From Gammaproteobacteria bacterium (GTDB lineage Bacteria > Pseudomonadota > Gammaproteobacteria > JADZEE01), in the NCBI GenBank assembly GCA_020850735.1, contig JADZEE010000051.1, positions 1-64,000 of the forward strand: a DNA stretch of 64,000 nucleotides. Reading direction: 5' to 3'. The notes beneath the pieces are model-generated. The model was given only the letters and a program-made list of their open reading frames with translations. It had not been told where the DNA came from and did no database searches. Within the stretch, counting starts at the first letter, position 1, and each line of letters starts with the position of its first letter. Of this stretch, positions 2,166 through 22,903 are shown piece by piece. Made by a program: the position numbers and the translations under genes.

Positions 2166-2825
2166 ATGGCCCTGACAGTGTACTGGGGCAGCGGCAGCGC
2201 CTTTGCCTGGCGCGTATTGCTCGCCCTCGAAGTCAAGAACCTCGCCTACGACTCGAAGCTCATCAGCTTCGAGGCCAAGGACAACCGCGCCCCCGGGTTT
2301 CTCGCGCTCAACCCGCGCGGCAAGGTGCCGGTGCTGGTCGACGGGGATTACGTGCTGTATGAATCCGAGGCGATCCTGTACTACCTCGACCGCAAGCACC
2401 CGCAACCGCCCCTGTACGGGACGAGCGCCGAGCAGGCGGGCGCCGTCATGCGTTCGATCTGCGAACAGAACGCTTACCTGGAGACGCCCCTGTACGACGT
2501 CGTAAGACCTCTGTATTTCGGCAGGATCCCCGACCAGGCGGACCGGGTCAGCGCGGCCGTGCCGCTCGTGGCACAGGAACTCGCCACGATCGAGACACGT
2601 CTCGGTGCGCAGGCGTGGCTGGCGACCGAGACGCTGAGCGCCGCGGATCTGTGTCTGTTCCCCAATGTCCAGACGCTGCGGCGCGCGCTCGGCAAGGACA
2701 CGGCGGCACCCCTGGCCGCCGCGTTGCTGCCCTTCGAGGAACGCTTTCCGGCGATCGTGCGCTGGACACGAAGTATCGAGAGCCTGCCTGGTTACGAGCG
2801 TACCTACCCGCCGCACTGGCGCTAG
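2166..2825 (+). CDS. Glutathione S-transferase family protein
   Basis: This 219-residue cytosolic-type GST has an N-terminal thioredoxin-fold domain (about 1-80) with the likely catalytic serine in GSGSAFAWRV. It carries the cis-proline of KVPVLV and the ESEAI glutathione-binding loop near residue 66. An all-helical C-terminal domain follows, with the conserved SAADLCLFP N-cap motif near 158. The length matches the family. Physiological substrates cannot be predicted. GGGAGAAAACCC precedes the ATG. It appears to be a single-gene unit, and the 177 bp upstream show no gene. Confidence 0.92.
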   Translation: MALTVYWGSGSAFAWRVLLALEVKNLAYDSKLISFEAKDNRAPGFLALNPRGKVPVLVDGDYVLYESEAILYYLDRKHPQPPLYGTSAEQAGAVMRSICEQNAYLETPLYDVVRPLYFGRIPDQADRVSAAVPLVAQELATIETRLGAQAWLATETLSAADLCLFPNVQTLRRALGKDTAAPLAAALLPFEERFPAIVRWTRSIESLPGYERTYPPHWR

Positions 2826-2906
2826 CGTACATCGCGGTGGCATTGCCCGCGCCATGCCCGGATAATCGGAGCGGCTCGCTGAGCGATAAATCGCGGGGTG
2901 ATTGTG

Positions 2907-3365
2907 ATGACGACGACGGATGACTTCTCGGTTGTGCGCGTACGCACGAGGATCCTGGCGGTGCGCGCCGTTCTCGTTGCCGCGGTAATCACCGTTGCGT
3001 TCGTGCCGGGCGCTTTCGCCGACGATGGTCCCGCGGCAGTCGTGGCGAGCGGTGCCAAGCGCTTCGAGCGCCACTGCGCGCTGTGTCACGGCAAGGACGC
3101 CAAGGGTTTCGGGCTGTACCTGAGCACCCTGAAGACCAAGCCGTCGAACCTGACACTGCTGGCGAAGAAAAACGACGGCTGTTTTCCGTTCGCCGAGCTG
3201 TATCGGATCATCGAAGGCCGTGACATGTCCAGCTCGCACGGCACGCGCGAGATGCCGATCTGGGGCGAGGAGTTCAAGGCGATGGTGCCCGGTGAATCCG
3301 AAACCCTGGTCCAGGGCCGGATCCTCGAGATCCTCATGTTCCTGGATTCGATCCAGGAACGTTGA
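2907..3365 (+). CDS. Periplasmic c-type cytochrome, monoheme
   Basis: A signal peptide or anchor (hydrophobic stretch AVLVAAVITVAFVPGAFA) precedes a single heme-binding CALCH motif in a short cytochrome c class I domain. A distal methionine ligand is available in the EMPIWG segment, which resembles the MP-W-G pattern of many cytochrome c domains. The protein is about 152 residues. A GTG at 2898 is an alternative start, but GGGGTG lies at good spacing from the ATG at 2907. It probably carries electrons in the periplasm; the partner is unknown. The RidA-like gene follows after 28 bp on the same strand. Confidence 0.85.
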   Translation: MTTTDDFSVVRVRTRILAVRAVLVAAVITVAFVPGAFADDGPAAVVASGAKRFERHCALCHGKDAKGFGLYLSTLKTKPSNLTLLAKKNDGCFPFAELYRIIEGRDMSSSHGTREMPIWGEEFKAMVPGESETLVQGRILEILMFLDSIQER

Positions 3366-6940: not shown

Positions 6941-7477
6941 ATGGAACGCGAAGGTCACATCAAACCAGGCATGGCGGGGAAGCAGATGCGCAGGCGAGAC
7001 GTGCTGGCCGGCGTCACGCTGCTCGCCGGCGCCACACTGGCTGGGGCCGGACGCGCGGCTGTCGAAGAGCACTCGGGCCATCACGTGACGGGCGCGGCGG
7101 GGGCCGCCGACGCCAGGCACCAGTACACCGAGGCCAGCGCGTATAAGAAGCGCCAATCGGCGGTGAATATCGCGAACGAGTGTATCGCGACGGGTCAGGC
7201 TTGTCTCAGTCACTGTATGGAGACCTTCGTCGCCGGCGATACCACCATGGCCGAGTGCGCGCGCTCGGTGCAGGAGATGATCGTCACCTGCCAGGCATTC
7301 GCGCAGCTCGCCGCCAACGACTCGGTGGTGCTGCGCCCCATGGCGCAGGCGTGCATTGCCGTCTGTGATGAATGCGAGAAGCAGTGTCGCGTACACGAGG
7401 AACACCAGGCCGAGTGCCGCGCGTGCGCCGACGCCTGCGCCGCTCTCGTCGTCGAGGCGGGAAAGATCGTCGCATAG
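6941..7477 (+). CDS. csp1: Tat-exported four-helix-bundle copper-storage protein (Csp1-like, DUF326)
   Basis: The protein has 178 residues and a very strong AAGGAGGAGG ribosome-binding site. A twin-arginine signal (MRRRDVLAGVTLLAGATLAG) would export a folded protein. The mature part contains twelve cysteines in CxxxC and CxxC pairs along predicted helices: NECIATGQACLSHC, VTC, QACIAVCDECEKQC, AECRACADAC. This is the signature of Csp copper-storage tetramers, which line the helix-bundle core with thiolates to bind many Cu(I) ions. A His-rich segment (EEHSGHHVTG) follows the signal. No copper exporter is adjacent, so copper supply or detoxification is inferred from the family. Confidence 0.9.
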   Translation: MEREGHIKPGMAGKQMRRRDVLAGVTLLAGATLAGAGRAAVEEHSGHHVTGAAGAADARHQYTEASAYKKRQSAVNIANECIATGQACLSHCMETFVAGDTTMAECARSVQEMIVTCQAFAQLAANDSVVLRPMAQACIAVCDECEKQCRVHEEHQAECRACADACAALVVEAGKIVA

Positions 7478-7695
7478 ATCCGGGCTCTCGAGCGGCCGGC
7501 GGGCATTGGTCTTCGCTGCACTCAGCCGCGCGCCGCCCGAGCTCGCCCGCAGATCCGCGGGCACACCGACCGCGAAGCGCCGGGCATCGATCCGTGCTCC
7601 CTGCGGGTGCCGGCCGGTGCCATTCGCAGCAGCGCTGCAATGAGCGCCGAAGCGGTGTTCAATGCCGGGGCCGACGGTATGGAAGGTCACACATC

Positions 7696-8397
7696 GTGAA
7701 TCGGCTGCGCGGGTGCGTAAGCACCGTGCTCACCGGCCGCGCGCGGCCCTACACCCGACCGGGCAGCCGCAGCGCCATCGCCAAGCGGCCGGTCGAGGGG
7801 CCGGTCAGCGTGCATCGTGAAGGCCTCCTGGGCGACGAGCAGGGTGATCGGCGCGTGCACGGTGGCCCGGACAAGGCGGTGCATCTTTATGCCACGGAGC
7901 ACTACCCCGCGTGGCGCGACGAGCTTGGTGCGCGGCCGGTACTCGGCGCTCCGGGCGCCTTCGGCGAGAATCTCAGCACACAGGGCGTCACCGAGGCTGA
8001 CGTGTGCCTTGGCGATCGCCTGCGCATCGGCAGTGCGTTGCTGGAGGTATCGCAGTCACGCCAGCCCTGCTGGAAGCTCAATGACCGCTTCGGCGTGCCG
8101 GACATGGCGCTGCGAGTGCAACAGACCTCGCGCGCCGGCTGGTATTGTCGCGTGCTGGAGCCGGGCAGCTTGCAGGCGGGCGATGCGATCACCTTGATTG
8201 CCCGCCCGCACCCCGACTGGCCGCTGCTGCGTCTGATGGAGCTTCTCTACCACCGGCCGCTCGATCACGATTTATTGATGCTGGCGCGTGATTTGCCGCT
8301 GGTGCCGTCGTGGCGGCGGCTGATCGAAACCCGCCTGGCGTGCGGTGTGGTCGAGAGCTGGGCGGCACGCGTCGATGGGCCGGCGCGTGAGGCATGA
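7696..8397 (+). CDS. yiiM: MOSC domain protein (YiiM-like)
   Basis: This 233-residue protein starts at a GTG preceded by GGAAGG. The MOSC core includes GDEQGDRRVHGGPDKAVHLY, the GENLSTQGVTEADVCLGDRLRIG segment and the conserved cysteine in QPCWKL (residue 125), thought to carry sulfur or the molybdenum cofactor ligand. The C-terminal helical part (WPLLRLMELLYHRPLDHDLL) matches the 3-alpha domain of YiiM. YiiM-type proteins are Moco-dependent and linked to N-hydroxylated-compound reduction in E. coli. The 218 bp upstream (7478-7695) show no gene. Confidence 0.88.
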   Translation: MNRLRGCVSTVLTGRARPYTRPGSRSAIAKRPVEGPVSVHREGLLGDEQGDRRVHGGPDKAVHLYATEHYPAWRDELGARPVLGAPGAFGENLSTQGVTEADVCLGDRLRIGSALLEVSQSRQPCWKLNDRFGVPDMALRVQQTSRAGWYCRVLEPGSLQAGDAITLIARPHPDWPLLRLMELLYHRPLDHDLLMLARDLPLVPSWRRLIETRLACGVVESWAARVDGPAREA

Positions 8398-8584
8398 GCG
8401 GCGATCACCGGGTAACGGCCCGCCGCCTTCACGGCGGTGTATCCACAAGCGCCGCTGCGCGCGCATGCCACGTTGCCGCGACGCGCGGGAATCCTGTCGC
8501 GCCGCGGCGTGCGGACTCCGTCTCGTAACCCCGCCACGGCTCGCACGAGGTGCACATCTGCCGCGTTTGCTGATCCACGGCAAT

Positions 8585-9243: not shown

Positions 9244-9495
9244 CGGCCGGCGACTCCCATTAGCCGGCGCTTGTCAACGGCACGAGTCTGCTGTTCATGG
9301 TCGTACCATGATGTTCAAGTCGATACTGCACCGGACATCGTCCGAGCTTGCACCCGTTTCTTCGTTTCATTGGCTGCGACGTGTTCATCGCAGAATGACC
9401 TCGCGGTTCGGTTTGGATAGCACCCTTGTCGCGGGGGCGGGAGATCACATTGTGAACCCGGCAGGTCTTGGCTTATTCCTCTGCGTAGTGGCTTC

Positions 9496-9588
9496 GCCCA
9501 ACAAGTCGTTGAACCGGACGCTTTTCCCCGTCCCTTCGCTTCCGCTCCGGTCGGTCGCCGTCAAGCGGCGGTTAACTCTGCGTTATGC
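9496..9588. other. attC-like integron recombination site (left of the defence operon)
   Basis: The 93-bp element starts with GCCCAAC (RYYYAAC core, 9496-9502) and ends with GTTATGC (GTT core, 9582-9588). Folding the arms pairs the two cores at five of seven positions. It leaves an unpaired spacer (AAGTC opposite TCTGC) and then pairs GTTGAACCG with CGGTTAAC, with one extra G on the 5' arm. An unpaired spacer plus an extrahelical base is the hallmark of attC sites. The loop is GC-rich. No integrase gene is in the window. The rest of the gap 9244-9639 holds no credible gene. Confidence 0.6.
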
Positions 9589-9639
9589 GCATCTGCTTTT
9601 TCGGAGCCATTGCCATAGCTAACAAGAAATGACTGCCGA

Positions 9640-11208
9640 GTGATCAAGGTTATCGACATTTTCGCAGGCCCTGGCGGCCTCAGCGAGGGCTTTGCTGCCG
9701 TCACCGACGCCAAGAGCAACCTAGTCTTCGATGTGGCGCTCTCGGTTGAGAAGGACGAGCGGGCGCACGCTACACTCCTTCTGCGTACGTTCTTCCGACA
9801 ATTTCCCGATTCGGCGCCTGACGATTACTACAGGCTGCTTCGAGCTGAGATCACCCGAGAAAGCCTGTTCGAGGCGCACCCGTCCGAGGCGAAGCTCGCG
9901 GAGAAGCGTGCGTGGCGCGCCACGCTTGGCGAGGAAGGCGAGGCCCGTTCAACCGTACGTGCTCGCATCAGGAAAGCGCTCGGCAGCGACACGAGCTGGG
10001 TACTTATCGGCGGCCCCCCGTGCCAAGCGTATTCGATTGCCGGCCGTTCGCGCAATCGCGGCAAGCGGAACTATGACCCAGCTAAAGACGAACGACAGCG
10101 ACTCTATGTCGAGTACCTGCAGATTCTGGCCGAACACCGGCCGGCCGTGTTCATCATGGAGAACGTCAAGGGTTTGCTCTCCGCCACGCTCGACAACGAG
10201 CGCGTGTTTCACAGAATACTGGAAGACCTTCGCGATCCCGCGAAAGCGATTCAACGAGAGGGCCGAGGCGGTATGAATGTCCGTCCGGGTGGCTACCGCA
10301 TCCATTCGTTGACGGAAGCTCACGTCCTTGAGAACGCAACCCTGCGCGGCGCAGTCATCGAAGCAGAGAAGTACGGTGTCCCTCAGGCCCGGCACCGCGT
10401 CTTCCTACTTGGAGTCCGCGACGACATCAACGACGTGAAGTCGCTTGTACTTACTGAACAGGAGCCCGTCCCCGCATCGTCGGTTATTGGGTCCCTACCC
10501 CGGCTGAGGGGCGGTTTATCGCCGCGGAAGAAGGATTCCCCTACCGCTTGGAAGTCGTACCTGCAGTCCCAGGGAACCAGCCGATGGGCGAACGCTGGAA
10601 CCCGAAGGGTGGCTGGTGACACGCTTGGGCGGTTCATTCGTGATAAGCTCAGCGAAATCTCGCTTCCACGGACGGACCGCGGTGCCGAGTTCCTTGCGGC
10701 CGATGCGGCAGCGGTGTACGCGTCGAACTGGTTCATGGACAGCCGCATCCAAGGCGTCTGCAATCACACCAGCCGTTCTCATATGCCCAAGGATCTGTGC
10801 CGCTATTTCTACGCCGCGTGCTACGCGAAACTTCACGGCCGCACGCCAGTCCTGAAGAACTTTCCGGCGGACCTTCTCCCGGATCACGTCAGCGCCAATA
10901 AGGCCGTCCAGAATGGCGGTCATTTCTCCGATCGCTTCCGGGTACAGATCGGGTCCCGTCCGAGTACAACGATTGTCTCGCACATCAGCAAGGACGGTCA
11001 CTACTACATCCACCCCGATCCGCTTCAATGCCGCAGCCTCACTGTGCGCGAAGCAGCGCGACTCCAGACATTTCCCGACAACTACTTCTTTTGCGGGAAT
11101 CGGACGGCCCAGTACGTCCAAGTCGGCAACGCTGTGCCTCCGCTGCTGGCACGTCAGATCGGTGAGATCGTGCGTGACCTGCTAAAAGCTGCCGGAGCTA
11201 ACAGCTGA
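9640..11208 (+). CDS. dcm: C5-cytosine DNA methyltransferase
   Basis: The 522-residue enzyme transfers methyl from SAM to the C5 of cytosine in a specific DNA sequence. Canonical motifs are present in order: motif I FAGPGGLSEGF (residues 8-18), motif IV GGPPCQAYS with the catalytic Cys128, motif VI ENVKG (174-178), motif VIII QARHR (249-253), a target-recognition region of about 220 residues, and motif X GNAVPPLLA near the C-terminus. The start is GTG. It opens the defence operon: vsr overlaps its stop codon, and four more genes follow with tiny gaps or overlaps. It probably marks host DNA as self for the downstream effectors. Confidence 0.95.
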   Translation: MIKVIDIFAGPGGLSEGFAAVTDAKSNLVFDVALSVEKDERAHATLLLRTFFRQFPDSAPDDYYRLLRAEITRESLFEAHPSEAKLAEKRAWRATLGEEGEARSTVRARIRKALGSDTSWVLIGGPPCQAYSIAGRSRNRGKRNYDPAKDERQRLYVEYLQILAEHRPAVFIMENVKGLLSATLDNERVFHRILEDLRDPAKAIQREGRGGMNVRPGGYRIHSLTEAHVLENATLRGAVIEAEKYGVPQARHRVFLLGVRDDINDVKSLVLTEQEPVPASSVIGSLPRLRGGLSPRKKDSPTAWKSYLQSQGTSRWANAGTRRVAGDTLGRFIRDKLSEISLPRTDRGAEFLAADAAAVYASNWFMDSRIQGVCNHTSRSHMPKDLCRYFYAACYAKLHGRTPVLKNFPADLLPDHVSANKAVQNGGHFSDRFRVQIGSRPSTTIVSHISKDGHYYIHPDPLQCRSLTVREAARLQTFPDNYFFCGNRTAQYVQVGNAVPPLLARQIGEIVRDLLKAAGANS

Positions 11209-11648
11209 TGGACCGTCTTACCCGTGAGCACCGGAGCTGGAACATGTCTCGCATCCGCGGGCGTGACACGCAGCCCGAACTCGTCGTCCGATCGGTTCTC
11301 CACCGCCTTGGGTTTCGGTTCAGAGTGCACGAACAGGAATTGCCGGGCTGCCCTGATGTGGTGCTTCCGCGACATCGCGTGGTTGTCTTCGTACACGGGT
11401 GCTTCTGGCACAGGCACCGAGGTTGCCGGTTCGCCTACACACCCAAAAGCAATGGCGCTTTCTGGTCGGACAAGTTCGAGCAAAACGTCGGGCGCGATTC
11501 CCGGAATAGGAAGGAGCTGCGACGCCTCGGTTGGCGCGTCGTCGTTATCTGGGAATGTCAGGCAGCCGACCGCACAGCGTTGACTCAACGGCTCGCTGCT
11601 GCTTTCAAGGCTGTCGATGGACCGCCTACAGGGGTGGCAACAGAATGA
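11208..11648 (+). CDS. vsr: Very short patch repair endonuclease (Vsr)
   Basis: This 146-residue enzyme nicks 5' of the T in T:G mismatches formed when 5-methylcytosine deaminates, which protects methylated sites from mutation. Typical Vsr features are WNMSRIRGRDTQPEL at the N-terminus (catalytic Asp and helix), RVHEQELPGCPDVVLPRHR with the PD-(D/E)XK-like aspartate, VFVHGCFWHRH (zinc and catalytic His), and WSDKFEQNVGRDSRNRKEL. The start overlaps the methyltransferase stop (TGATG) and the stop overlaps the next start (ATGA), so translation is coupled. Confidence 0.95.
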   Translation: MDRLTREHRSWNMSRIRGRDTQPELVVRSVLHRLGFRFRVHEQELPGCPDVVLPRHRVVVFVHGCFWHRHRGCRFAYTPKSNGAFWSDKFEQNVGRDSRNRKELRRLGWRVVVIWECQAADRTALTQRLAAAFKAVDGPPTGVATE

Positions 11649-13123
11649 ATGCCTCACTGCATCCGGGCGAGGACATAGCACCGATTCCGGGCGATCTCGT
11701 CGAATCGTTGCGCGACTTCGGCTATACGCTGCCTTCGGCACTGGCTGATCTCGTCGACAATAGCCTGACCGCTAAAGCAACAGAAATCGAGGCCTATCTC
11801 GAGGCCGACGGGCCCGACTCCTATGTCGCCGTGGTCGACAACGGGAGAGGAATGGACCAGAAGACGCTGGTTGAAGCCATGCGCATGGGTACCAAAGGCC
11901 CGCTCGCAGCCAGAAGCGACAACGACCTAGGCCGCTTTGGCTTGGGGATGAAGACCGCGTCCCTCTCTCAGGGGACGCGACTCACCGTGATCACCAAGGC
12001 TTCCGATAGACCGACGCTCGTGCGCCGCTGGGACGTGGGCCACATCCGTAAGAGCGCCAAGTGGGAGCTTCTTACTGACCCGACTGCAATCGCCGCGCCG
12101 TTTGTCGATAAGATCGACGGCATGTGCTCGGGCACGGCCGTGATTGTCGAGGACCTTGATCGCGCGACATATCTGAAGGTCGCTGCGAGCGAGGTAAAGC
12201 AGCATTTCGGAAGAAGCCTCGATAGCGTCCGGCGTCATCTGGCAATGGTGTTCCATCGCTTTATTGAAGACGGCGTCACGATCTGTCTGGGTTCTACCGC
12301 CCTGCCCGCGTGGGACCCGTTTCTGAAGAAGCAGTCGACGAAGCTGGCGACGGAGCACTTTGCGCTTCTGGGCAAGACGATCGACATCGTCCCCTACGTG
12401 CTTCCGCATCACAGTCATCTGACCGACGAGCAGCACGACGACGCGGCGGGACCCAATGGCTGGAATGCGCATCAAGGCTTCTACCTGTATCGCTGCAGGC
12501 GACTGATTCTCCCGGGTTCATGGCTCAATCTTCATCTGCGCAAGGAAGAGCATTTCAAGCTCGCGCGCATTCAGGTCGACCTGCCCAACAGCATGGACGC
12601 CGAATGGCACCTCAACGTCACGAAGTCACAGGTGGCTGCGCCCGCGGCGCTGCGGGATGATTTCGCCCGCGTGGCGCGCAACGTGCGCAGCCAGGCGGCC
12701 GCGGTTTACCGAATCAGGGGAGAACGTCATGCGCCTTCTAACGCGCCACCGCATCGCTTTGTATGGAAGCGGGAGGAATCAAGAGGCGCCGTGCGGTATC
12801 GCATCGACCGCACGCACCCGGTTGTCCAAGCTTTGCTTCATGGCGGATGCGAGCACGCGGGGCTGTTGGGCGAGATGCTTGAACTGATCGAGCGCACGGT
12901 GCCAATCGCCACGATGCTGCAGGATCCAGTGAAATCCCTCGAAGGCGCGGCGCTCGAGAGCGACGAAAAGGCCGCGGAGCAATTCGTCGACATGATGCTT
13001 CACGCCGAGCGTTTCCTGATCTCGGCAGGGAAGACGCCGGCAGACGCGCGACAGATCGTGATGAATGCTGAGCCCTTCGTGCACTTTCGGGAGGTTCTCT
13101 CTGACATGCTGAACAAGATCTGA
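11645..13123 (+). CDS. GHKL-type ATPase, MORC/MutL-like, of a restriction/defence operon
   Basis: This 492-residue protein has an N-terminal HATPase domain. ALADLVDNSLTAKA (Asp38/Asn39) is the Mg-ATP motif, VVDNGRGMD (65-71) is the DxGxG motif, and GRFGLGMKTASLSQG (96-110) is the ATP-lid glycine motif. The DLVDNS plus GLGMK arrangement resembles MutL/MORC ATPases that accompany R-M-type operons. By family it should dimerise on ATP binding and clamp or translocate on DNA. The C-terminal half is helical with no known motif. ATGA overlap with vsr and an 11-bp gap to the helicase show operon membership. Confidence 0.88.
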   Translation: MNASLHPGEDIAPIPGDLVESLRDFGYTLPSALADLVDNSLTAKATEIEAYLEADGPDSYVAVVDNGRGMDQKTLVEAMRMGTKGPLAARSDNDLGRFGLGMKTASLSQGTRLTVITKASDRPTLVRRWDVGHIRKSAKWELLTDPTAIAAPFVDKIDGMCSGTAVIVEDLDRATYLKVAASEVKQHFGRSLDSVRRHLAMVFHRFIEDGVTICLGSTALPAWDPFLKKQSTKLATEHFALLGKTIDIVPYVLPHHSHLTDEQHDDAAGPNGWNAHQGFYLYRCRRLILPGSWLNLHLRKEEHFKLARIQVDLPNSMDAEWHLNVTKSQVAAPAALRDDFARVARNVRSQAAAVYRIRGERHAPSNAPPHRFVWKREESRGAVRYRIDRTHPVVQALLHGGCEHAGLLGEMLELIERTVPIATMLQDPVKSLEGAALESDEKAAEQFVDMMLHAERFLISAGKTPADARQIVMNAEPFVHFREVLSDMLNKI

Positions 13124-13134
13124 CAACTTTCGAC

Positions 13135-15954
13135 GTGCCTTCTGTGAGCGACGATTCACCCTTTGGCGGATTCACAGCGGAAAACGCTGTCGATCTTCTG
13201 ATGCAGGCACTTAAGCTCGAAGTCGAACCCACGCCAGCGGAAGTCGAGGCCGAAGTCGACAAGCTGCTGACGGGGCTCTTTGCCGCGCTGAGGCCTTACC
13301 GACAGGCCATCATCGACGACGTCCTGAAGCGCATTCGCGTGCGCGTCGGCGTCGCCTCCGTGCTCTCCGACGATACCGGTCACATCGACTGGCTGCCGGG
13401 CGTTGACCGTACGCAATGGGAGTTCTGGCCACGCCTTGAGCGCTATCTGCGGCGCGCCGACGAACTGGAACCTGCGAAGGTACTTGAGCTCGATCGTTCC
13501 ACCGACAAGACACTGGAGCTTCTGGAATCACCCCTGCGCGAAGGCCGCTGGGATCGGCGCGGCCTCGTGGTCGGGCACGTGCAGTCTGGGAAGACCTCTC
13601 ATTACACGGCGCTGTCGGCCAAGGCGCTTGATGCCGGCTATCAGATCATCATCATCCTCGCCGGGGTCCATAACAGTCTGCGCGCGCAGACTCACGAGCG
13701 AATCGACGAGTATCTGATCGGGCGAGACTCTGCAGCACTGCTTGAAGCGGTGCGCCAGCAGCGCACGACGGTCGAAAGCGGCCAGCGCATCGGCGTGAGC
13801 GATTTTGACCTCAAGCGCGGCGTGCCCGACCCGCTTGTCTCCATCCTGACGTGCACGAACTCAAACGACACCGGCGATTTCAAGACGGCCGTCGCCACTC
13901 AAGTCGGCCTGCAGGTGGGAGCGGGTTCGCGACTAGTTATGGTCGTGAAGAAGAACGCGACCATCCTTCGGAACCTTGTCGATTGGATGCGGCTGCAAAA
14001 TGCGGCGCCCGGCACGGCTGGACCGGATCGGCGCGTTCTTGCACCCACGCTCGTAATCGACGACGAAGCGGATCATGCTTCCATCAACACGAAAGATCCC
14101 GATCAGGATCCAACAACAATCAACCGATTAATCCGCGAGCTCTTGATGGCTTTTGATCGCGTCTCGCTCGTCGGCTATACCGCGACGCCCTTTGCCAACA
14201 TTTTCATTCCGCTCGATGTCAATGCGGCCAATCCGGCCAAGTTTGGGGACGACCTTTTTCCCCGCTCGTTTATTGTCAATTTGAAACCGCCCTCCGACTA
14301 CATAGGGCCCGATCGCGTGTTCGGACATCCGGGGGACGAATCCATCAACATCCCCGAGCGCCCGCCGCTGCCGATGTTCGTTCCGGTGGCGGACGCGGGC
14401 ATCTGGATGCCCGACAAACACAAGAAGGACCATTATCCAGGCACCATTCCCCGTTCGCTGCAGGAAGCCGTACGGCTCTTCGTGTTGGTCTGCGCCGCGC
14501 GGGCGGCAAGGGGCAACGAGCAGGTTCACAACTCGATGCTCGTGCACGCCACGCGTTTCGTGAATGTGCAAAGCCGCGTCGCGGAGCAGATCGAGGTAGA
14601 ACTCAACGCACTTCGCAACGTCCTTAGCTTCGCCGCGCTCGGCAGCAGCCAGTCCGAGCGCCAGAAGATGAAGGACGTTTGGGACGACCAGATTTTGCAG
14701 AAGCACGAGGAATTCCGCGTCCAGCTTGGCGATGACTGTCCATCCCTGCCCGCATGGGATGACGTGTGGAAAGGCGTGGACGCTGCTTTGAGGCGCATCA
14801 CGGTCATGCGCGTCAACGGCACGTCTGCCGACGCGCTTAAGTACTCGAAGAACCCAGAAGGCGTCTACGTCATTGCCATCGGCGGCGACAAGCTCAGTCG
14901 CGGTCTCACGCTGGAAGGCCTGTCTGTCAGCTACTTCCTGCGCACGTCCAATATGTTCGACACGCTCCTGCAGATGGGACGCTGGTTCGGCTACCGGCCG
15001 GGATATTTGGATCTCTGCCGCGTGCATACAACGCCAACGCTCTACGCCGCGTTCCGGGAAATCGCCTTGGCGATGGAGGACCTGCGCGCTGATCTCGACC
15101 TCATGGCGGAGACGAAAAAGACACCGGTCGAGTTCGGCTTGCGCGTTCGCACACCGCAGGACGGGCTGGTTATCACATCCGCCAATAAGATTCGGCGCGG
15201 CGATCCCGTTCAGGTCCGCTTCGCGGATTCGATCATCCAGACGCTCGAGATTCCGCGAAAGGGCGACCAAGCCGGCGAGAACCGGGCCGCCGTCCGAACG
15301 TTGATCGAGCAGCTCGGCCGATCTGATCGCAAGGTGCGTGGCGATGCATCGCCGCATTACCTGTGGCACAACATCGGCGTCGACAAGGTGTTGGAGTTCT
15401 TAAGCCGCTATGAGGCTTTTTCGACGCCAAGCTTCTTCACGCGATGCACGGCGATCCGCAACTACATCCGCCAGCAGGTCGAAAAGGGCGAGCTGACCGG
15501 ATGGACCGTCGCCGTCGTCTCGAAGAGATCGAGCCCGCGTCAGGTCCGGCTTGGCGCTTATGACGTGAACCTGGTCGAGCGAGGAAAGGACTCGACGCCC
15601 GCACCGGAAGACCGCCTGCGCATGCGAGGCGTCGTCGGCAGCGAAGAAGAAGCGCTTGACCTCTCGCCTGCAGAATATGCGGTGGCCGATCGTGCGCGTG
15701 CGTCCAAGGGGGACGACGCTCCGAAATTCCGCGAGACCGTCCGAAATCAGCGGCCCGCCGCGCGCGGGCTCTTGTTGATCTATCCGGTGAAAGTGCGTGG
15801 AGAAGATCTGCAACTTGGAGAAGAGTTTATTCCGGCAGTCGCCATCAGCTTCCCGGCATCCCAGACGGCGCAGCCGCTCTCCTACACGGTCAACGACGTG
15901 TGGAAGAAGCAGTACGGTCTCATTGACGATCCCGATGACTACACCGCTGCGTGA
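13135..15954 (+). CDS. Z1-domain superfamily 2 helicase/endonuclease-like protein
   Basis: The protein has 939 residues; the start is uncertain (GTG 13135 or 13144, neither with a good ribosome-binding site). SF2 motifs are clear: Walker A GHVQSGKT at 147-154, Walker B-like LVIDDEADH at about 307-314, motif III-like VGYTATPFAN at 346-355, and the second RecA domain with GGDKLSRGLTLEGL and QMGRWFGYR (613-621) supplying the arginine finger. The QSGKT and QMGRWFGYR combination is diagnostic of Z1 proteins found in R-M-like operons. It is probably the DNA-translocating motor of the system. Its 3' end overlaps the next gene by 20 bp. Confidence 0.93.
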   Translation: MPSVSDDSPFGGFTAENAVDLLMQALKLEVEPTPAEVEAEVDKLLTGLFAALRPYRQAIIDDVLKRIRVRVGVASVLSDDTGHIDWLPGVDRTQWEFWPRLERYLRRADELEPAKVLELDRSTDKTLELLESPLREGRWDRRGLVVGHVQSGKTSHYTALSAKALDAGYQIIIILAGVHNSLRAQTHERIDEYLIGRDSAALLEAVRQQRTTVESGQRIGVSDFDLKRGVPDPLVSILTCTNSNDTGDFKTAVATQVGLQVGAGSRLVMVVKKNATILRNLVDWMRLQNAAPGTAGPDRRVLAPTLVIDDEADHASINTKDPDQDPTTINRLIRELLMAFDRVSLVGYTATPFANIFIPLDVNAANPAKFGDDLFPRSFIVNLKPPSDYIGPDRVFGHPGDESINIPERPPLPMFVPVADAGIWMPDKHKKDHYPGTIPRSLQEAVRLFVLVCAARAARGNEQVHNSMLVHATRFVNVQSRVAEQIEVELNALRNVLSFAALGSSQSERQKMKDVWDDQILQKHEEFRVQLGDDCPSLPAWDDVWKGVDAALRRITVMRVNGTSADALKYSKNPEGVYVIAIGGDKLSRGLTLEGLSVSYFLRTSNMFDTLLQMGRWFGYRPGYLDLCRVHTTPTLYAAFREIALAMEDLRADLDLMAETKKTPVEFGLRVRTPQDGLVITSANKIRRGDPVQVRFADSIIQTLEIPRKGDQAGENRAAVRTLIEQLGRSDRKVRGDASPHYLWHNIGVDKVLEFLSRYEAFSTPSFFTRCTAIRNYIRQQVEKGELTGWTVAVVSKRSSPRQVRLGAYDVNLVERGKDSTPAPEDRLRMRGVVGSEEEALDLSPAEYAVADRARASKGDDAPKFRETVRNQRPAARGLLLIYPVKVRGEDLQLGEEFIPAVAISFPASQTAQPLSYTVNDVWKKQYGLIDDPDDYTAA

Positions 15955-16948
15955 TACCTGGTCGGAACTGATTGGCGAAACCGGTCCAGCCCCGGTAGAT
16001 ATTCGCCTGCGTCTTGTTTTCAGCGGCGCGGACGTGCGCGCCTTTGCGGCGGTCACTGCGAAAGAGGGCCTGCCAGCCGTCCTTCTGGAGCTGCCGGACG
16101 CTGTACGTCCGCGCAACTTCAAGACACTTATCACGCGGGCTTTCCAGATGTCTGCGCCTTCCGTGAAGGGTCTGCCTTCCGGTCGTTGGGCGCTCTTAAT
16201 CGAGCTGAAGGACCGCACCTTTCAAGATCTGTTTGAGGTGCTGGTGGGCGATGTTCTGATCGCAATCCATTGCGACTCTGGAAACCAAGCGACGCTGCGA
16301 GCCGTTCTGCTTTGCATTGATCGCTGGCGCCGTTTTGTCGAGCGCAAGGGAGAGCCGTTGTCCGATGAAGAGGTGCAGGGGTTGATCGGGGAACTCGTTG
16401 TGCTTAGCCGCTGCGCTCGGTGTTTTGGTGCGGATGTGGCCCTTGCCGCGTGGACCGGGCCCGATCGTGCGTTGCGGGACTTCGAACTGCCTGACACTTC
16501 GGTCGAGGTGAAAACGTATCAGGGCGGCGACGCGGCGACGGTATTGATTTCTTCACCCGCCCAGTTGGACGCTGTTGCCATGCGGCCCGTCTATCTGGCA
16601 GCCGTCCGGCTCACGCTGTCGGACGCGCAAGGGCTCACGCTTTCTGAATTCGTCGGACGCGCGTTAAGCGTCATCGGCCCAGGTACGGCCAGCGATGGAG
16701 TTCTCGAAGAGCGCCTCGTGGCAGCCGGGTATCTTGCGGCCCACGCGCCTCTCTACGTCAAACGATTTATCGCCGGGCCTGTGATGACCTATGCCGTCAC
16801 CCCGGGCTTCCCCCGCATCCGCTCCATCGACGTGCCGCAGGGGGTCTCGGGCGTGCGCTTTGCGCTCAGCATCCCGGCGCTTGCTCCCTTTCAGGCCGCC
16901 GCTGTAGCCGTGATCGGCGGTCGCATCCCGGAATTAGAGAGCTTATGA
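15935..16948 (+). CDS. PD-(D/E)XK motif protein (DUF4420-like), putative nuclease
   Basis: The 337-residue protein overlaps the helicase gene by 20 bp. The middle region contains a candidate nuclease core: a helix with IGELVVLSRC (Glu153), RDFELPDTSVEVKT (Asp182/Asp187 and the E191-V-K193 pair), and a following strand with Gln/Ser residues. This matches the E...D...ExK layout of PD-(D/E)XK proteins encoded beside Z1 helicases. I infer that it is the DNA-cleaving subunit. The N-terminal third (LSRLRLVFSG-type strands) is a separate domain of unknown role. Confidence 0.85.
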   Translation: MTTPLRDTWSELIGETGPAPVDIRLRLVFSGADVRAFAAVTAKEGLPAVLLELPDAVRPRNFKTLITRAFQMSAPSVKGLPSGRWALLIELKDRTFQDLFEVLVGDVLIAIHCDSGNQATLRAVLLCIDRWRRFVERKGEPLSDEEVQGLIGELVVLSRCARCFGADVALAAWTGPDRALRDFELPDTSVEVKTYQGGDAATVLISSPAQLDAVAMRPVYLAAVRLTLSDAQGLTLSEFVGRALSVIGPGTASDGVLEERLVAAGYLAAHAPLYVKRFIAGPVMTYAVTPGFPRIRSIDVPQGVSGVRFALSIPALAPFQAAAVAVIGGRIPELESL

Positions 16949-16949
16949 C

Positions 16950-19034
16950 GTGATCGAACTTCAACGTTTCCTTGAGCAGCTGCGAAGCGACGCATTTGAT
17001 ACCGCCCACGACCCGGAAATCGGCGGGCTGCGCGTCCCGGCACTCGCCCGTGCCGTTCTCGACCGGCTGGAAGACGCGGGCGTCTCCGCCGACAGCCAGA
17101 TCGCGTACTACCGGCATGAGCGAACGAACGTCCATGCGGAGGTCCATGCGTATTCATGCGATGCGGAAGATGACATCATTTCGCTCTATTATCTTGTCGA
17201 TGGCAACGAGGATGTGCCGCTCGGAGAATCCGCGTCCGCCTTGGGCATAGCTAAGGATCAGATCGATCGCGCCTTCCGCCGCCTTGAAGCGTTTGTGAAG
17301 CTGGCGCAGGCGGACCGCGCACCTGACCTTGATCAGTCGCAGCCCGCCTCCGAACTCTTCGAACTCGTCAGCGCGTCTGCTGAAGCCGGACTGAAGGTCG
17401 TTCTCAACGTGCTGGTTCTCGGGATCGTGTCGGAACGGGCCGCCACCAGCGAGCAGAGAAAGGGCCTTGAGAGGGAAGTCTGGGACCTTGATCGTCTCGT
17501 CAAGACCTGCGGCGGAGACGGCGACGAACGGCCGTCCATCGACTTCGTCGATGAGTTCGGCGTGTCGCTCCCTTGCCTCGTGACGTCGAAGACGGATGAC
17601 GGCCTGCAGGTCTTCATGACCTGGATTCGCGGTGACGTTCTCGCGCAGATCTACAACACTTACAGAAGCCGTCTGCTCGAGCGAAACGTGCGCTCGTTTC
17701 TGCAGTTCACAGGGAGGGTAAACAAAGGCATTCGCGAAACTGTTCTCGATCGTCCCGCCAGATTTCTTTCCTACAACAACGGTCTTTCCGCAACCGCGTC
17801 CATTGTGAGCTTGGAGGACGTCGGCACCGGCCTCGCGCGCATTAGGGCGGTCAAGGACTTCCAGATCGTCAATGGAGGGCAGACAACCGCCTCGATTGCA
17901 AGCAGCGCCCGCCGCGACGGGATTGACGTGAGCAGCGTGTCCGTGGCCATGAAGTTGACGGTCGTTCCGTCGGACAAGCTCGACGAATTCGTGCCGCTGA
18001 TCTCGAAGTATGCGAACACCCAAAACCGAATCCAGGAGGCGGACTTCAGCGCTAACCATCCTTGGCACATCGAGCTCGAGCGCCTCTCGAGGAGTATCTG
18101 GACTAAGCCCACTGCGGACGCTCCGCGGGGTACGCGCTGGTTTTACGAACGCTCGCGGGGGCAGTATGCCGACGAGCTGGCCAGTCAGAACACGCCGGCG
18201 GGTCGGCGGCAGTTCAGAACCGCGAATCCTACATCGCAAAAGTTCACGAAAACCGATCTTGCAAAATACGTGCTGACCTGGGACCAGCAGCCGGCCGTCG
18301 TCAGCCGCGGCGCGCAGAAGTGCTTCGTCGATTTCATGAACAGGATTCAGCGGGAACGTCGGCCGGTGCCCGATACAAAGGAGTTTGAACGCATCGTCGG
18401 CCTTGCGATGCTCTTTCGCCGCGCGGAGAAACTATATGGCGAGATGGGGTACCAAGGCTATCGCGCGCAGGTCGTGACGTACAGCATCGCCAGGTTATCA
18501 AACGCGATGGCTCGCCGGCTGCCCTTTGACGCCATCTGGAAAGAGCAGGAGGTTCCTGAGGGCATCAAGGCGCCTCTCGCTAAAGTAATCATCGGCGTTC
18601 GCGACGTCATCGTACAGCCACCCGGGAATCGCAACATCACCGAGTGGTGCAAACGTGACGACTGCTGGGCTAGGATTCGCGCCCTCCCGGTCGAAGTCGA
18701 TGGCGCCGACGAGAGCACTTGGTCACCGAATCCCAGCCGTTCCGACCAGTTGGCGAACGCCGATGGAACCGTCATCGCGGTTGCAGCTGTGCCGTCGGAT
18801 GTATGGTTCGCGGCCTCAAAGTGGGCCAGAGATACGAGGACTCTTCTTCCTTGGCAGCGCAGCTTGGCATATTCACTCGGTGGTCGCCGAGGTCGCGGCT
18901 CAGCACCCACAGCTAAACAGGCGATTCAAGGTCGGAAGCTGTTGCTAGAAGCGGTCCGTCTCGGCTTCGGCCACGAGTATCTCACGAACGATGTTGTCCA
19001 TGCTCTTGCTGCGTCCGAAGCGCCTGACATCTGA
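16950..19034 (+). CDS. AIPR (abortive phage infection) family protein
   Basis: The 694-residue protein starts at a GTG one base after the preceding stop. The central block around residues 270-380 is typical of AIPR proteins: FLSYNNGLSATAS, then VKDFQIVNGGQTTASI and LISKYANTQNRIQEADFSAN. These occur in phage-exclusion loci and as terminal genes in Z1/MORC-type restriction operons. FQIVNGGQTT is strongly conserved, with Asn and Gln likely functional. It probably senses or executes the abortive response; the mechanism is unknown. It is the last gene of the operon; 19035-19297 contains no further gene of this system. Confidence 0.92.
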   Translation: MIELQRFLEQLRSDAFDTAHDPEIGGLRVPALARAVLDRLEDAGVSADSQIAYYRHERTNVHAEVHAYSCDAEDDIISLYYLVDGNEDVPLGESASALGIAKDQIDRAFRRLEAFVKLAQADRAPDLDQSQPASELFELVSASAEAGLKVVLNVLVLGIVSERAATSEQRKGLEREVWDLDRLVKTCGGDGDERPSIDFVDEFGVSLPCLVTSKTDDGLQVFMTWIRGDVLAQIYNTYRSRLLERNVRSFLQFTGRVNKGIRETVLDRPARFLSYNNGLSATASIVSLEDVGTGLARIRAVKDFQIVNGGQTTASIASSARRDGIDVSSVSVAMKLTVVPSDKLDEFVPLISKYANTQNRIQEADFSANHPWHIELERLSRSIWTKPTADAPRGTRWFYERSRGQYADELASQNTPAGRRQFRTANPTSQKFTKTDLAKYVLTWDQQPAVVSRGAQKCFVDFMNRIQRERRPVPDTKEFERIVGLAMLFRRAEKLYGEMGYQGYRAQVVTYSIARLSNAMARRLPFDAIWKEQEVPEGIKAPLAKVIIGVRDVIVQPPGNRNITEWCKRDDCWARIRALPVEVDGADESTWSPNPSRSDQLANADGTVIAVAAVPSDVWFAASKWARDTRTLLPWQRSLAYSLGGRRGRGSAPTAKQAIQGRKLLLEAVRLGFGHEYLTNDVVHALAASEAPDI

Positions 19035-19253
19035 CAATGCCTGTACCACAAATATGGTGCCGGCGCAGAAACGCATACGTTTGCACTTGACGGCCTATTC
19101 GTCGGGATACGCCGCAGGTGAAACGTTGCGTTGATATGACTTCCGCCGTCAAGATGCCGACTGAGTGTGAGCGACAGTTGCTCGTCGTCATCGGGGGCGC
19201 CCGAGCGATCGGAAGAGACGGAGCCTGTAACTGCGCCGGTATGCTGTTTGCTA

Positions 19254-19281
19254 TTGGCTATTGGCTGTTGGCTGTTGGCTG
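19254..19281. repeat. Short heptamer tandem repeat (TTGGCTR)4
   Basis: Four consecutive heptamers (TTGGCTA, then three TTGGCTG) occupy 19254-19281, with a degenerate fifth copy before them. They lie directly upstream of the ribosome-binding site of the gene at 19298, in a spot prone to slippage. The last G (19281) followed by TTAAGG could be the left crossover point of a gene cassette. Confidence 0.7.
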
Positions 19282-19297
19282 TTAAGGGGAGATCAGC

Positions 19298-19861
19298 ATG
19301 GGTTTACATGTTCATAATTTGGGTAACCTTCCTGCTGATGCAGAAAGGGGGTATTTCATTTATATGCTCGATTACGGCTGGCATGAGCCGTTATCAGAAG
19401 CGATGCGGGCGAACTTCACTAATATGGCTAGACTAGCATCCAAATCTAAGTCTGTCGTGATAGCCGGTGTAGAGCCGATCCATTTTGAAAACGAAGTGTT
19501 TTCCTATCATGGAATTAATGGCGAGCATGGAGAAGAAGTACTCCCAGCATTAATGATTACTACTTTGCACCCGAGATACTTTAAAGAAAATAATCATGCG
19601 TGGCGAGAAAGTGGTGAGATAGACGATAAACTACTTCTTATCCCACTAAAGAAATGCTGTAAAACTACGAGTGACGTAGTAGCACTGATTCATAAGATCT
19701 TTAAGGACATCGAAGAAAAGAAGGAGCTTGCAAATTTTTCAATCCAGAAAGAAATAAGGAAAAAAAGTGGGTGGCGCGCGGCAGCAGATGCGTTCATTTT
19801 GCAACCAAATATCAGCGGTATCGGCGTTGATTTTAGGAAGTTACTCGGGTTCGGCAGCTAA
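19298..19861 (+). CDS. AT-rich orphan gene, cassette-like, unknown function
   Basis: The protein has 187 residues and I do not recognise a family. Base composition (about 40% GC) and use of AAA/AAT/ATT codons differ sharply from every neighbour, so recent transfer is likely. The N-terminal part looks like an alpha/beta fold (GYFIYMLDYGW, then SKSVVIAGVEPIHF). ALMITTLHPRYF follows, and the C-terminus is lysine-rich and helical (KIFKDIEEKKELANFSIQK). There is no signal peptide. AAGGGGA precedes the ATG. The TAA stop lies inside the 5' core of an attC-like site, as is usual for integron cassette genes. Confidence 0.75.
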   Translation: MGLHVHNLGNLPADAERGYFIYMLDYGWHEPLSEAMRANFTNMARLASKSKSVVIAGVEPIHFENEVFSYHGINGEHGEEVLPALMITTLHPRYFKENNHAWRESGEIDDKLLLIPLKKCCKTTSDVVALIHKIFKDIEEKKELANFSIQKEIRKKSGWRAAADAFILQPNISGIGVDFRKLLGFGS

Positions 19862-19927
19862 CAAGCGCATGTTGTCGGGCTGGTTTTTCGCTTCGCTTCA
19901 AACCAGCCGCAAATGCGGGCGATATCT
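19856..19927. other. attC-like site following the orphan gene
   Basis: The 72-bp element begins AGCTAAC (19856-19862) and ends GATATCT (19921-19927), with cores pairing at five of seven positions. The arms CGCATGTTGTCGGGCTGGTTT and AAACCAGCCGCAAATGCG pair along their whole length if three single bases (G, T, G) of the 5' arm are extrahelical. That is the asymmetric bulge pattern that defines attC strand choice. The outer right core lacks GTT and starts G-A-T, as expected if the cassette was inserted at a secondary (GWT) site or the core has decayed. Confidence 0.55.
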
Positions 19928-20160: not shown

Positions 20161-20880
20161 TTACTGCGTAGCGAGATAGAGATCAGAACGCGGTGGATTA
20201 TCGGCGAACAGTGTCTTCCAGCGCCGCGGTGTCAATGTCTCGATGTCCTTGTCAGGGTGAATAGCGATCGGCTGCAGGACATCGACCAAGTAGGTGTAGG
20301 GATTGAGGCCGTGCAGCCTGCAGGTCCTCATCAAGCTCTGGATGACGCCGACGTATTCGGCACCGACCTCGATCCAGCAGAACAGCCAAGCCTTGCGACC
20401 CATCGGTATGGGACGCAGTGCACGCTCGAGATGTTTCGCGGCGACGGCTGGGTCGCCGAGGTAAACACGGAGCGCTCCTTCGCGTTCACGGACATACGCC
20501 AACGCCTTGGCTAACTGGCTGCTCGGGATCAGGCCGAGATGATGGCACTGCCTATCGACCCAGGCGAAAAAGCATCCATTGCCGGCAAGGCGTCACGCTG
20601 GGGGAGTTCGAGGATCGCCGTGGCGCCGAGTTGCTTCTCACGGAACGCCGCTTCCACATACAGCCGCCTAATCAACGTGAGTTCCGCAGCCACCACCGTC
20701 GGCTCATCGGCCTCGGCCTTGACGAACATCCGCCGCGTATGGCTCCAGCATTGTGCATAGACGAGCTCGGGTCGCTTTTGCGCAAAGCTCGCATAAGCAG
20801 CCGTGTCATCGTTGAGCAAGGTCCCGGCGACGTCGGCGAGGACGGTGTCGACGTGCTTAGGACACAGATCCAAATTAGCT
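20161..20880 (-). pseudogene. IS66-family transposase, C-terminal half, frameshifted
   Basis: On the minus strand one frame (about 20880-20570) carries VDTVLADVAGTLLNDDTAAY, then AQCWSHTRRMFVKAEADEP and LTLIRRLYVEAAFREK. The frame then breaks near 20570. A second frame continues with LAKALAYVREREGALRVYL, HLERALRPIPMGRKAWLF and TCRLHGLNPYTYLVDVLQ to the stop at 20161. This is the catalytic and C-terminal part of an IS66 TnpC. The N-terminal helix-turn-helix and zinc-finger part, the terminal inverted repeats and the accessory genes are not detectable. A deletion also seems to have removed residues before HLERALRP. Confidence 0.8.
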
Positions 20881-21347
20881 TTCAGGTCGGTCACGATGCG
20901 CGCGGCAATCGCCGCAGCCGTGCCGGTGTAGGTGGCGCAGCGCTCGCCGAGGCGCTGGTCGCGGAACGTGGCTTGATCGGCGGCGGTGTCGAGATCACAG
21001 CCCGGGAGCGCGTGGCCGTCGCGGGCGTCGAACGCCTGCGCGAACGCCCGAATGAGGCGCTGCGTCGCGGTGTAGCACGGTTGCACGGACTCGCTGGCCC
21101 GGGAGCGCCCCGGCGCGAGACTGATCCCCAAGATGGCGCCGGTGATCGCCGGAATGTATCGTTCCGGCCGCGTATTACAACTGCAATCCCGCCCGCTGGC
21201 GCGCTCGTGGTTCTTCGCCGGGCCGGCCGCAAGCCGGAATGTGGCATCATGGTCCACGACGCTGCGCGCGGTTGCGTACTTTCGCACCGCGCGGCCGCCG
21301 CCGGCAATGACCGAAAACGATCGATGAACCGAGTGGGGAGAAACGTC
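20881..21347. other. Gene-free stretch next to the IS66 remnant
   Basis: No supportable gene is seen. Minus-strand translation has weak Arg/Ala-rich open frames that could be highly decayed transposase sequence, but I cannot align them to anything. The last 30 bp carry the GGGGAG ribosome-binding site of the following membrane-protein gene. Confidence 0.4.
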
Positions 21348-21746
21348 ATGGAACAGGCGCAGAAAATCAAGTACCTGACGCTCGCACTGTATGTCTTCGG
21401 CGCCATCTTCATCGCGGGCGTGCCGCTGATGATGATGTGGGTATTTCCGTCCGGCTGGAGCTGGATGCCCCGCCAGCCCGAGTACGAGCAGATGATCATG
21501 GGGGTGTACGCGACGCTGGGGGTGTTCCTGATCCTGGCGGCAAAGGATCCACTGGCCCACCTCAGTCTCATCTGGTTCACCGTCTGGTCGAGCGTCGTCC
21601 ACGGCGGCATCATGCTGGCGCAGGCATTGGCCGACGCGAGCGAGCATGCGAATCTGGTCGGTGATATCCCGGCGCTGTTGCTGGTGGCGGCAGTACTGGC
21701 GTACCTGACGCCGCGCGCGTCGTCGCGAACGGCGGCCGGAGGCTAG
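21348..21746 (+). CDS. Small integral membrane protein of unknown function
   Basis: The 132-residue protein has four predicted membrane segments: LTLALYVFGAIFIAGVPLMM, MIMGVYATLGVFLILAA, LSLIWFTVWSSVVHGGIML and IPALLLVAAVLAYLT. The VHGG motif and the W-F-P segment in loop 1 look conserved, as in small DUF-type membrane proteins of proteobacteria. The ATG at 21348 is supported by GGGGAG at 8-nt spacing; an in-frame ATG at 21324 lacks one. Its stop codon overlaps, on the opposite strand, the end of a decayed gene. Confidence 0.75.
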   Translation: MEQAQKIKYLTLALYVFGAIFIAGVPLMMMWVFPSGWSWMPRQPEYEQMIMGVYATLGVFLILAAKDPLAHLSLIWFTVWSSVVHGGIMLAQALADASEHANLVGDIPALLLVAAVLAYLTPRASSRTAAGG

Positions 21747-22041
21747 CCGTAAGCTACATTGCCGGGCGCTGGTGCGCGGGCGGATCGCGCACCACCGTTC
21801 GCGGTTTCGATCGCCTGGAATTCGAGGCCCGGCAGATGCACCCGCGCCACCGTTTCCACGCCGGGCAGTGTATTGACGTTCGTTTCCTCGATCGCCTCGA
21901 CGGCGGCTCGGAAAACACGGGGAGCGCGAGCGTATAGCAGCCGTTGCCGGCACTGCTGACGCCGAGGGTGGCGACGAGCACATTGAAGCCGCCGGCGATG
22001 CGCGCGCCGACCTCAGCCTGCAGCGCCGCCGCCGTCCGCAT
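21743..22041 (-). pseudogene. Frameshifted small gene downstream of the iminopeptidase gene
   Basis: An ATG at 22041 overlaps the end of the iminopeptidase gene and opens a frame with LQAEVGARIAGGFNVLVATL, then GVSSAGNGCYTLALP. Near 21925 coherent coding moves to another frame: AAVEAIEETNVNTLPGVETV, ARVHLPGLEFQAIETANGG, stop at 21743. Joined, the two give a plausible protein of about 98 residues with good coding character on both sides of the break. I do not recognise the family. A sequencing or assembly indel is as likely as a real mutation. Confidence 0.35.
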
Positions 22042-22903
22042 GGCGCAGGAACCGCTCCAGCACCTGGCGGTAGCGCTGCGGCTCCTCCAGGTGCGCCATG
22101 TGCGCGCTGTGCTCGAAAACGACGAGCTGCGAACTGCGGATCCCGGCGTGCAGGGTCCGGGCGCAGGCGGGCGTGATCTCGTCGTGGCGGCCCACGGTGA
22201 TCAACGTCGGGACATCGATCTCGCCGAGGCGCGCGGTCCGGTCCCAGTCCTTGAGATTGCCGATCACGGTGAACTCGTTCGGTCCGTTCATGGTCTCGTA
22301 CACGGGATTGCCGTCGAGGTTGGCCAGCGTGCGCATGACGCAGTCGGGCCATTGCGGCAGCCGGCAGACGTGCCGCCGGTAGAACGCCATCGTCGCCTGG
22401 GCGTAGTGCGGATGGTGGTAATCGTGCGCGGCCTCGTAGCGCTGCAGGGTCGCCTGCACGTCGGCGGGCAGGCCGCGCTTCAGGCCCTCGGCCTCGCGCA
22501 CGAACTGCGCGATGCTGGCCGAGGTGCTGGCGAGCACCAGGCCGGCGATGCCGGCGGGCCGGCCGAGCAGGTACTCGATCGCGAGCCACCCGCCCCAGGA
22601 CTGGCCGAGCAGGTGCACCCGCTCGAGCCCGAGCGCGGCACGCAGCTCGTCGATCTCCCGGCAGTAGCGCTCGATGCGCCACAAACTGGTGTCATCGGGG
22701 CAGTCCGAGCGGCCGCAACCGAGCTGGTCGTAGAACACCACCGGTCGCACGCCGGCGAGCGCCGCGAGCGGTTCGAGGTAGTCGTGGCCCGCGCCCGGGC
22801 CACCGTGCAGCAGCAACAGCGGTATCGCGGGGGCATCACCGACGCGCCGGTACCAGACGCGCTGCCCCGATTGCAGGTGTACGTAGCCTTCTTCGCTGGT
22901 CAT
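22013..22903 (-). CDS. pip: Proline iminopeptidase-like alpha/beta hydrolase
   Basis: The 296-residue protein belongs to the proline iminopeptidase / tricorn-interacting-factor F1 branch of serine peptidase family S33, which removes N-terminal proline or other residues from peptides. HGGPGAGHDYLEPL forms the oxyanion hole, VFYDQLGCGRSD is characteristic of this branch, GQSWGG carries the nucleophile Ser, GRHDEITP the acid residue, and FEHSAHMAHLEEP the catalytic His. The ATG at 22903 was chosen because GAGGA lies upstream; an in-frame extension to 22987 is non-homologous. Confidence 0.92.
   Translation of the reverse strand: MTSEEGYVHLQSGQRVWYRRVGDAPAIPLLLLHGGPGAGHDYLEPLAALAGVRPVVFYDQLGCGRSDCPDDTSLWRIERYCREIDELRAALGLERVHLLGQSWGGWLAIEYLLGRPAGIAGLVLASTSASIAQFVREAEGLKRGLPADVQATLQRYEAAHDYHHPHYAQATMAFYRRHVCRLPQWPDCVMRTLANLDGNPVYETMNGPNEFTVIGNLKDWDRTARLGEIDVPTLITVGRHDEITPACARTLHAGIRSSQLVVFEHSAHMAHLEEPQRYRQVLERFLRHADGGGAAG

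Follow-up and report, generated by a model that had tools for sequence, protein, structure and literature searches.

A six-gene MZA-like defence operon in a detached integron cassette-array fragment, perhaps carried there as one giant cassette

In a gammaproteobacterial genome, a six-gene operon resembling the MZA anti-phage system lies inside a fragment of an integron cassette array. This is shown by the identities of the attC sites, the gene content of the locus, the integrase encoded in the same genome and the neighbouring orphan gene, which is a cassette elsewhere. The most likely reading, to which we give a probability of about 60%, is that the whole operon forms a single giant cassette. 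The stretch of DNA analysed here (64,000 nucleotides; hereafter the window) is part of the 97-kb contig C51.

A scan of the window and of the array-bearing contigs against Rfam gave no match. Therefore, a covariance model (R1) was built from collected attC sites. For training, we aligned 42 attC sites, which came from integrons adjoining intI in ten related genomes and from contigs C82 and C65 of the same genome; C51 was excluded. Standard pairs occupy 88.1% of the cells of this alignment, compared to 30–40% when one side is slid. Applied to array DNA (99 kb), R1 detected 102 sites with E no greater than 0.01, every one of them on the expected strand, and bona fide array attC sites scored 20.8–58 bits. 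As controls, we used the remaining 39 kb of the window, where the top score was 8.3 bits, and 86 kb of foreign DNA, where it was 11.4 bits, which is also the maximum over all 125 kb of non-array DNA (filters off). A second model (R2), in which the core boxes were left out and only the arms were kept, turned out to be far less specific (56 matches in 20 kb at E of at most 10), and it was used only for ranking. A pattern scanner, the first to be used, found the left of the two sites listed below, yet it produced about ten false matches per 64 kb of shuffled DNA and was dropped for the covariance models. The two sites are as follows:

9496–9588, plus strand: attC1, complete (R'' GCCCAAC, R' GTTATGC; crossover after G9582)
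19856–19927, plus strand: attC2, with an altered crossover triplet (R'' AGCTAAC, R' GATATCT)

A sequence-only reading of this DNA had claimed attC architecture at both places, with the core boxes paired at five of seven positions. Both sites are real. The covariance model recovered them at exactly these coordinates with 41.4 and 20.0 bits, compared to at most 11.4 bits in the 125 kb of controls, and our pairing counts are the same. For attC1, which has R''/R' core boxes and L''/L' arms with extrahelical bases, this score corresponds to E 5e-8 over 101 kb and to E 2.5e-6 across the 5-Mb genome. For attC2, E is 0.0027 over 20 kb (filters off). When the same 20 kb was ranked with R2, attC2 was the top match (20.4 bits) and attC1 the second. 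The sequence-only reading had also held that only the second site is immediately cassette-like. It is true that a stop codon lies inside R'' of attC2, which is usual for cassettes. However, the crossover triplet of attC2 is GAT and not the canonical GTT, whereas attC1 scores much higher, and its R' box is followed after 51 bp by the GTG start of the methyltransferase gene.

We then compared attC1 with the other attC sites of the genome. It shares 77% identity with a C65 site (83 bp aligned) and 78% with a C100 site (55 bp aligned), and this likeness ties it to the integron pool of its own genome. On the left, attC1 is bordered by a repeat:

9363–9495, no strand assigned: repeat of about 130 bp, an IS-like end that abuts R'' of attC1 and is truncated here (87–88% identity to the starts of C100 and C65)

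The genome contains three copies of this repeat, the other two being at 49–178 of C100 (L012) and at 3–127 of C65 (L011). For each copy, the boundary coincides with the R'' box of an attC, a different one in each case. Judging by this arrangement, the repeat looks like the end of an attC-targeting mobile element, and it may belong to an insertion element that targets attC without being a member of the IS1111-attC group. On C100, the reverse strand of the repeat opens a frame, MNTSAKKRFERNYAAHVQHLKLKG, which we take to resemble the start of the integrases accompanying IS91-type elements. Searches of plasmids, viral contigs and 369 genomes gave no match to the IS-like end. Cassettes on C65 (L011, about 2450–3125) and C100 (L012, about 300–860) apparently carry HigBA-type toxin–antitoxin pairs, as read from the sequence. 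Such pairs are common in chromosomal integrons.

There is no integrase gene in the window, as had been said before; the integrase of the genome, IntI, is encoded on C82 (TIGR02249, 471 bits; cut-off 265). A genome-wide search with R1 found attC sites on C82, C65, C100 and C18, and searches of the 97 kb of C51 found them at this locus alone. In a complete integron, intI with attI stands beside the array; C51 carries no intI. Since the integrase and the arrays are on other contigs and the attC sites of C51 are found only here, the locus is a detached cassette-array fragment of the CALIN type, bounded on the left by the IS-like remnant. With CALINs it shares attC sites in the same orientation without an adjoining intI, the intI gene being elsewhere in the genome. 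The CALIN rule calls for less than 4 kb between attC sites (PMC9668308). In contrast, attC1 and attC2 are 10.3 kb apart, and the distance from attC1 to a candidate third site at 19066–19136 is still 9.5 kb. Thus, standard surveys that use the 4-kb joining rule would miss this locus. On C82 (L010), a lexA-like gene adjoins intI (about 7000–7470 and 7520–8520). When lexA lies beside intI, SOS control of the integrase is expected.

The operon between the two sites consists of six genes:

9640–11208, plus strand: DNA cytosine-5 methyltransferase, GTG start (Pfam PF00145, 1.9e-45; TIGR00675 above cut-off)
11208–11648, plus strand: Vsr very-short-patch endonuclease (TIGR00632, 7e-42)
11645–13123, plus strand: MzaB-like GHKL/MORC-type ATPase (PADLOC MzaB, 1.5e-85; NCBIfam MzaB, 372 bits, cut-off 850)
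13135–15954, plus strand: MzaC-like Z1-domain helicase-type protein (Pfam Z1, 3.6e-76; MzaC, 642 bits, cut-off 1500)
15935–16948, plus strand: MzaD-like PD-(D/E)XK protein, DUF4420 (Pfam PF14390, 2.3e-51; PADLOC MzaD, 1.1e-26; MzaD, 139 bits, cut-off 420)
16950–19034, plus strand: MzaE-like AIPR protein (Pfam AIPR, 4e-90; MzaE, 328 bits, cut-off 1050)

All six genes are intact and read in the attC orientation. They overlap or are at most 11 bp apart, and therefore one leader serves all of them. The order of the MzaB-, MzaC-, MzaD- and MzaE-like genes is that of MzaABCDE. However, the operon differs from that system by the absence of the MzaA sigma factor and by the added Vsr. Because MzaA is absent and all NCBIfam Mza scores are under the equivalog cut-offs, the operon is not MZA in the strict sense. 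With the "type II" Z1 systems of Miller et al. 2022 (PMC9523054) it shares the Z1, PD-(D/E)XK, cytosine C5-methyltransferase and AIPR proteins, all four being present, whereas Vsr is an addition. A GHKL ATPase, a helicase, a restriction-fold nuclease, a cytosine methylase, Vsr and AIPR also occur together in the MORC/paraMORC operons of Iyer et al. 2008 (PMC2292703), which, in the parts of that paper used here, are presented without an integron context, unlike the operon in the window. Going by the protein families, protection by the operon would be a methyl-guided restriction. The methyltransferase would mark self DNA, and Vsr would limit C-to-T mutation at the methylated sites. The MzaB- and MzaC-like proteins may load and move on unmarked DNA, and the MzaD-like protein may cut it. 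The AIPR protein could be an abortive effector.

The core of the operon (MzaB-MzaC-MzaD-MzaE and the cytosine methyltransferase) is also present on plasmids of Agrobacterium, with Vsr, and of Thalassospira, with a sigma factor. None of twelve further MZA-type loci (those of Agrobacterium, Thalassospira and ten more) yielded an attC. Since the core occurs without attC in such distant and unrelated bacteria, the integron did not assemble the operon, and the idea that integron recombination had helped to do so was rejected.

Between the operon and attC2 there is one more gene:

19298–19861, plus strand: AT-rich orphan cassette gene, 187 aa, 42% GC (stop codon inside R'' of attC2)

The protein has no significant match in Pfam, PADLOC, NCBIfam or PDB. 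Homologues with 64–65% identity are found in two other genomes (G169 and G200). In G169, the homologue has the same GCAGCTAAC end with the stop inside R'', and it is followed directly by a different attC (40.7 bits). The orphan gene thus has an attC directly at its 3' side and recurs elsewhere with a different attC, which makes it a cassette gene in its own right. The GC content is 60–61.5% in the operon genes, 42% in the orphan gene and 65–68% in the flanks. Because the orphan is a cassette in G169 and differs in GC from the operon, attC2 is to be assigned to the orphan cassette, which leaves the operon between attC1 and this cassette. The operon had been described as bracketed by two attC sites. 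This description holds in that both sites are real and the operon is between them, but the right-hand one belongs to another cassette.

Relatives of attC2 with 80–94% identity are present in other gammaproteobacterial genomes, and similar sites (80–91% identity) are present on plasmids of Pseudoalteromonas, Catenovulum, Salinivibrio and Alteromonas. The plasmid sites of this family are directly 3' of defence-type genes, namely an HD-CE/GHKL-ATPase gene, a two-gene SIR2-HerA operon and a caspase-like gene. Sites of the family that follow defence-type genes were seen in three marine Gammaproteobacteria (L112, 3004–3075; L113, 2999–3070; L114, 2998–3068). Most relatives have GTT at the crossover. 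In an alignment of ten sites of the family, R' ends in GGGCGTTA in seven of the nine others, compared to GGGCGATA in the window, and one relative has GTTATGTGTG where the window has GATATCTGTG. The remainder of R' in attC2 is still paired with R'', and so the difference is most simply explained by one change in the crossover triplet; the aligned sites suggest that it was a single T-to-A change. The GAT triplet has probably crippled attC2. Just 3' of attC2, broken remnants of IS66-family transposases lie on the minus strand (20161–22682 of the window).

Since the orphan is a separate cassette in G169, an attC is expected between the MzaE-like gene and the orphan. The gap between them contains a candidate:

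19066–19136, plus strand: candidate third attC, a degenerate hairpin (AAC/GTT ends, R boxes paired at four of seven positions)

This candidate lies 31 bp past the stop of the MzaE-like gene (19034) and is the sole attC-like structure before the orphan gene (19298). It has a long arm with single extrahelical bases on one side only, and the two inner extrahelical bases are separated by six pairs, a spacing also seen in the training set. Its L-box match was equalled in 0.2% of shuffles of the gap, its DNA fold has a z of -4.5 versus shuffles, and R1 gave it 9.7 bits, with E 0.016 within the 263-bp gap and no significance in 20 kb or genome-wide; the site was noticed after the first scan, and these statistics are not fully independent. 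Only the arms match: R2 gave 15.7 bits, yet false R2 matches are equal or better (16.7–17.7 bits). Among plasmids and 369 genomes, the search for relatives of this site returned only short, chance-like matches. Local alignment of the 263-bp gap to the attC sites of the same genome was weak, and the best result over all sites was matched in 3% of shuffles. Apparently, this is a probable decayed attC.

If the operon is one giant cassette, the locus would comprise two tandem cassettes: that of the operon, about 9.5 kb (9583 to about 19130), and then that of the orphan, about 0.8 kb (19131–19921). The cassettes would have entered next to attC1 as circles, through folded bottom-strand attC sites and the action of IntI, whether from this genome or from a previous host. 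The subsequent decay of the site at the 3' end of the operon and the mutation of the triplet in the last site would have left the segment probably immobile now. The cassette is 9,548 bp long if it is closed by 19066–19136, and 10,339 bp long if it is closed by attC2. Among 92 intervals measured in the arrays of relatives, the longest is 2,555 bp and the median length is 539 bp, and the earlier remark that such a cassette would be far larger than a normal one is borne out. The operon interval is about four times the largest of the 92, and its size counts against the operon being a cassette. The predicted bottom-strand fold of attC1 counts against it as well; it is not the recombinogenic form and has a z of -0.30 versus shuffles. 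Excision is still detected for synthetic cassettes of up to about 3 kb, and the limits on length are not stringent (PMC5371416). With the integron phage-defence cassettes described recently (Darracq 2025, Getz 2025, Kieffer 2025; via PMC12409362 and PMC12444791), the locus shares the placement of defence genes on cassettes. These typically hold one ORF and occasionally more (PMC12409362), whereas the operon in the window holds six genes in 9.5 kb. No description of a cassette of such size was found in the literature searched; this search was limited and is no proof of absence.

The main alternative, which we consider less likely, is that the operon was never a cassette and that illegitimate or homologous recombination or an IS placed it between attC1 and the orphan gene, for example into the leader of the orphan cassette. 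The attC sites would then mark only an older array. The weakness of the third site is consistent with this, and so is the length of the gap before the orphan, 263 bp compared to leaders of about 25–45 bp in G169 and G200. The region also has IS-like DNA and remnants of IS66 at its flanks, and other MZA-type loci are found on plasmids or islands without attC. However, no convincing target duplication or inverted ends were found at the operon, only 9–10-bp matches at chance level. In addition, such an insertion would need to have fallen just beyond an intact R' box and in the attC orientation.

The core of attG is GWT, and the GAT triplet at the right border fits it. We consider it improbable that this border is the scar of an insertion at a non-canonical attG, with G|ATATC as the original chromosomal sequence. 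The location of the array away from intI would agree with such a scar. On the other hand, the remaining R' still pairs with R'', and GTTATGTGTG in the relative versus GATATCTGTG in the window suggests one T-to-A change of the triplet. Any related strain bearing GTTATCTG at the right border would also be at odds with a scar. A scar of this kind and transport of the operon as one giant cassette can both be true, and our estimates for the alternatives are thus not exclusive.

A mis-assembly, in which reads of an array and reads of an MZA island were joined at a repeat, is very unlikely. The genome is a draft of 170 contigs with 5.9% contamination, and C65 and C100 begin in the repeat that is also present at 9363–9495. 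However, the copy on C51 is just 87–88% identical to the other copies, the site is internal to a contig of 97 kb, and nothing on the right side is repeated in the genome. Finally, the fold of attC1 alone is indistinct from shuffles, but the R1 scores of both sites and their homologues in this genome and in other species in practice refute the explanation that attC1 and attC2 are chance hairpins and that the operon is unconnected with integrons.

Transport of the operon as one giant cassette remains the reading that we prefer for this locus. In a more general form, integrons would move entire defence operons, with several genes and a length of about 10 kb, each as a single cassette; the 4-kb cut would hide these, and this locus would be one of them, fixed by the decay of its sites. 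We regard the chances of this general form as evenly balanced. Integron cassettes have been seen as mostly one short gene, and defence cassettes joined this picture in 2025. If the general form is true, the known capacity of cassettes would be several-fold higher, and large defence operons would have a further route by which they spread. The 4-kb spacing rule in integron surveys would then be hiding such loci.
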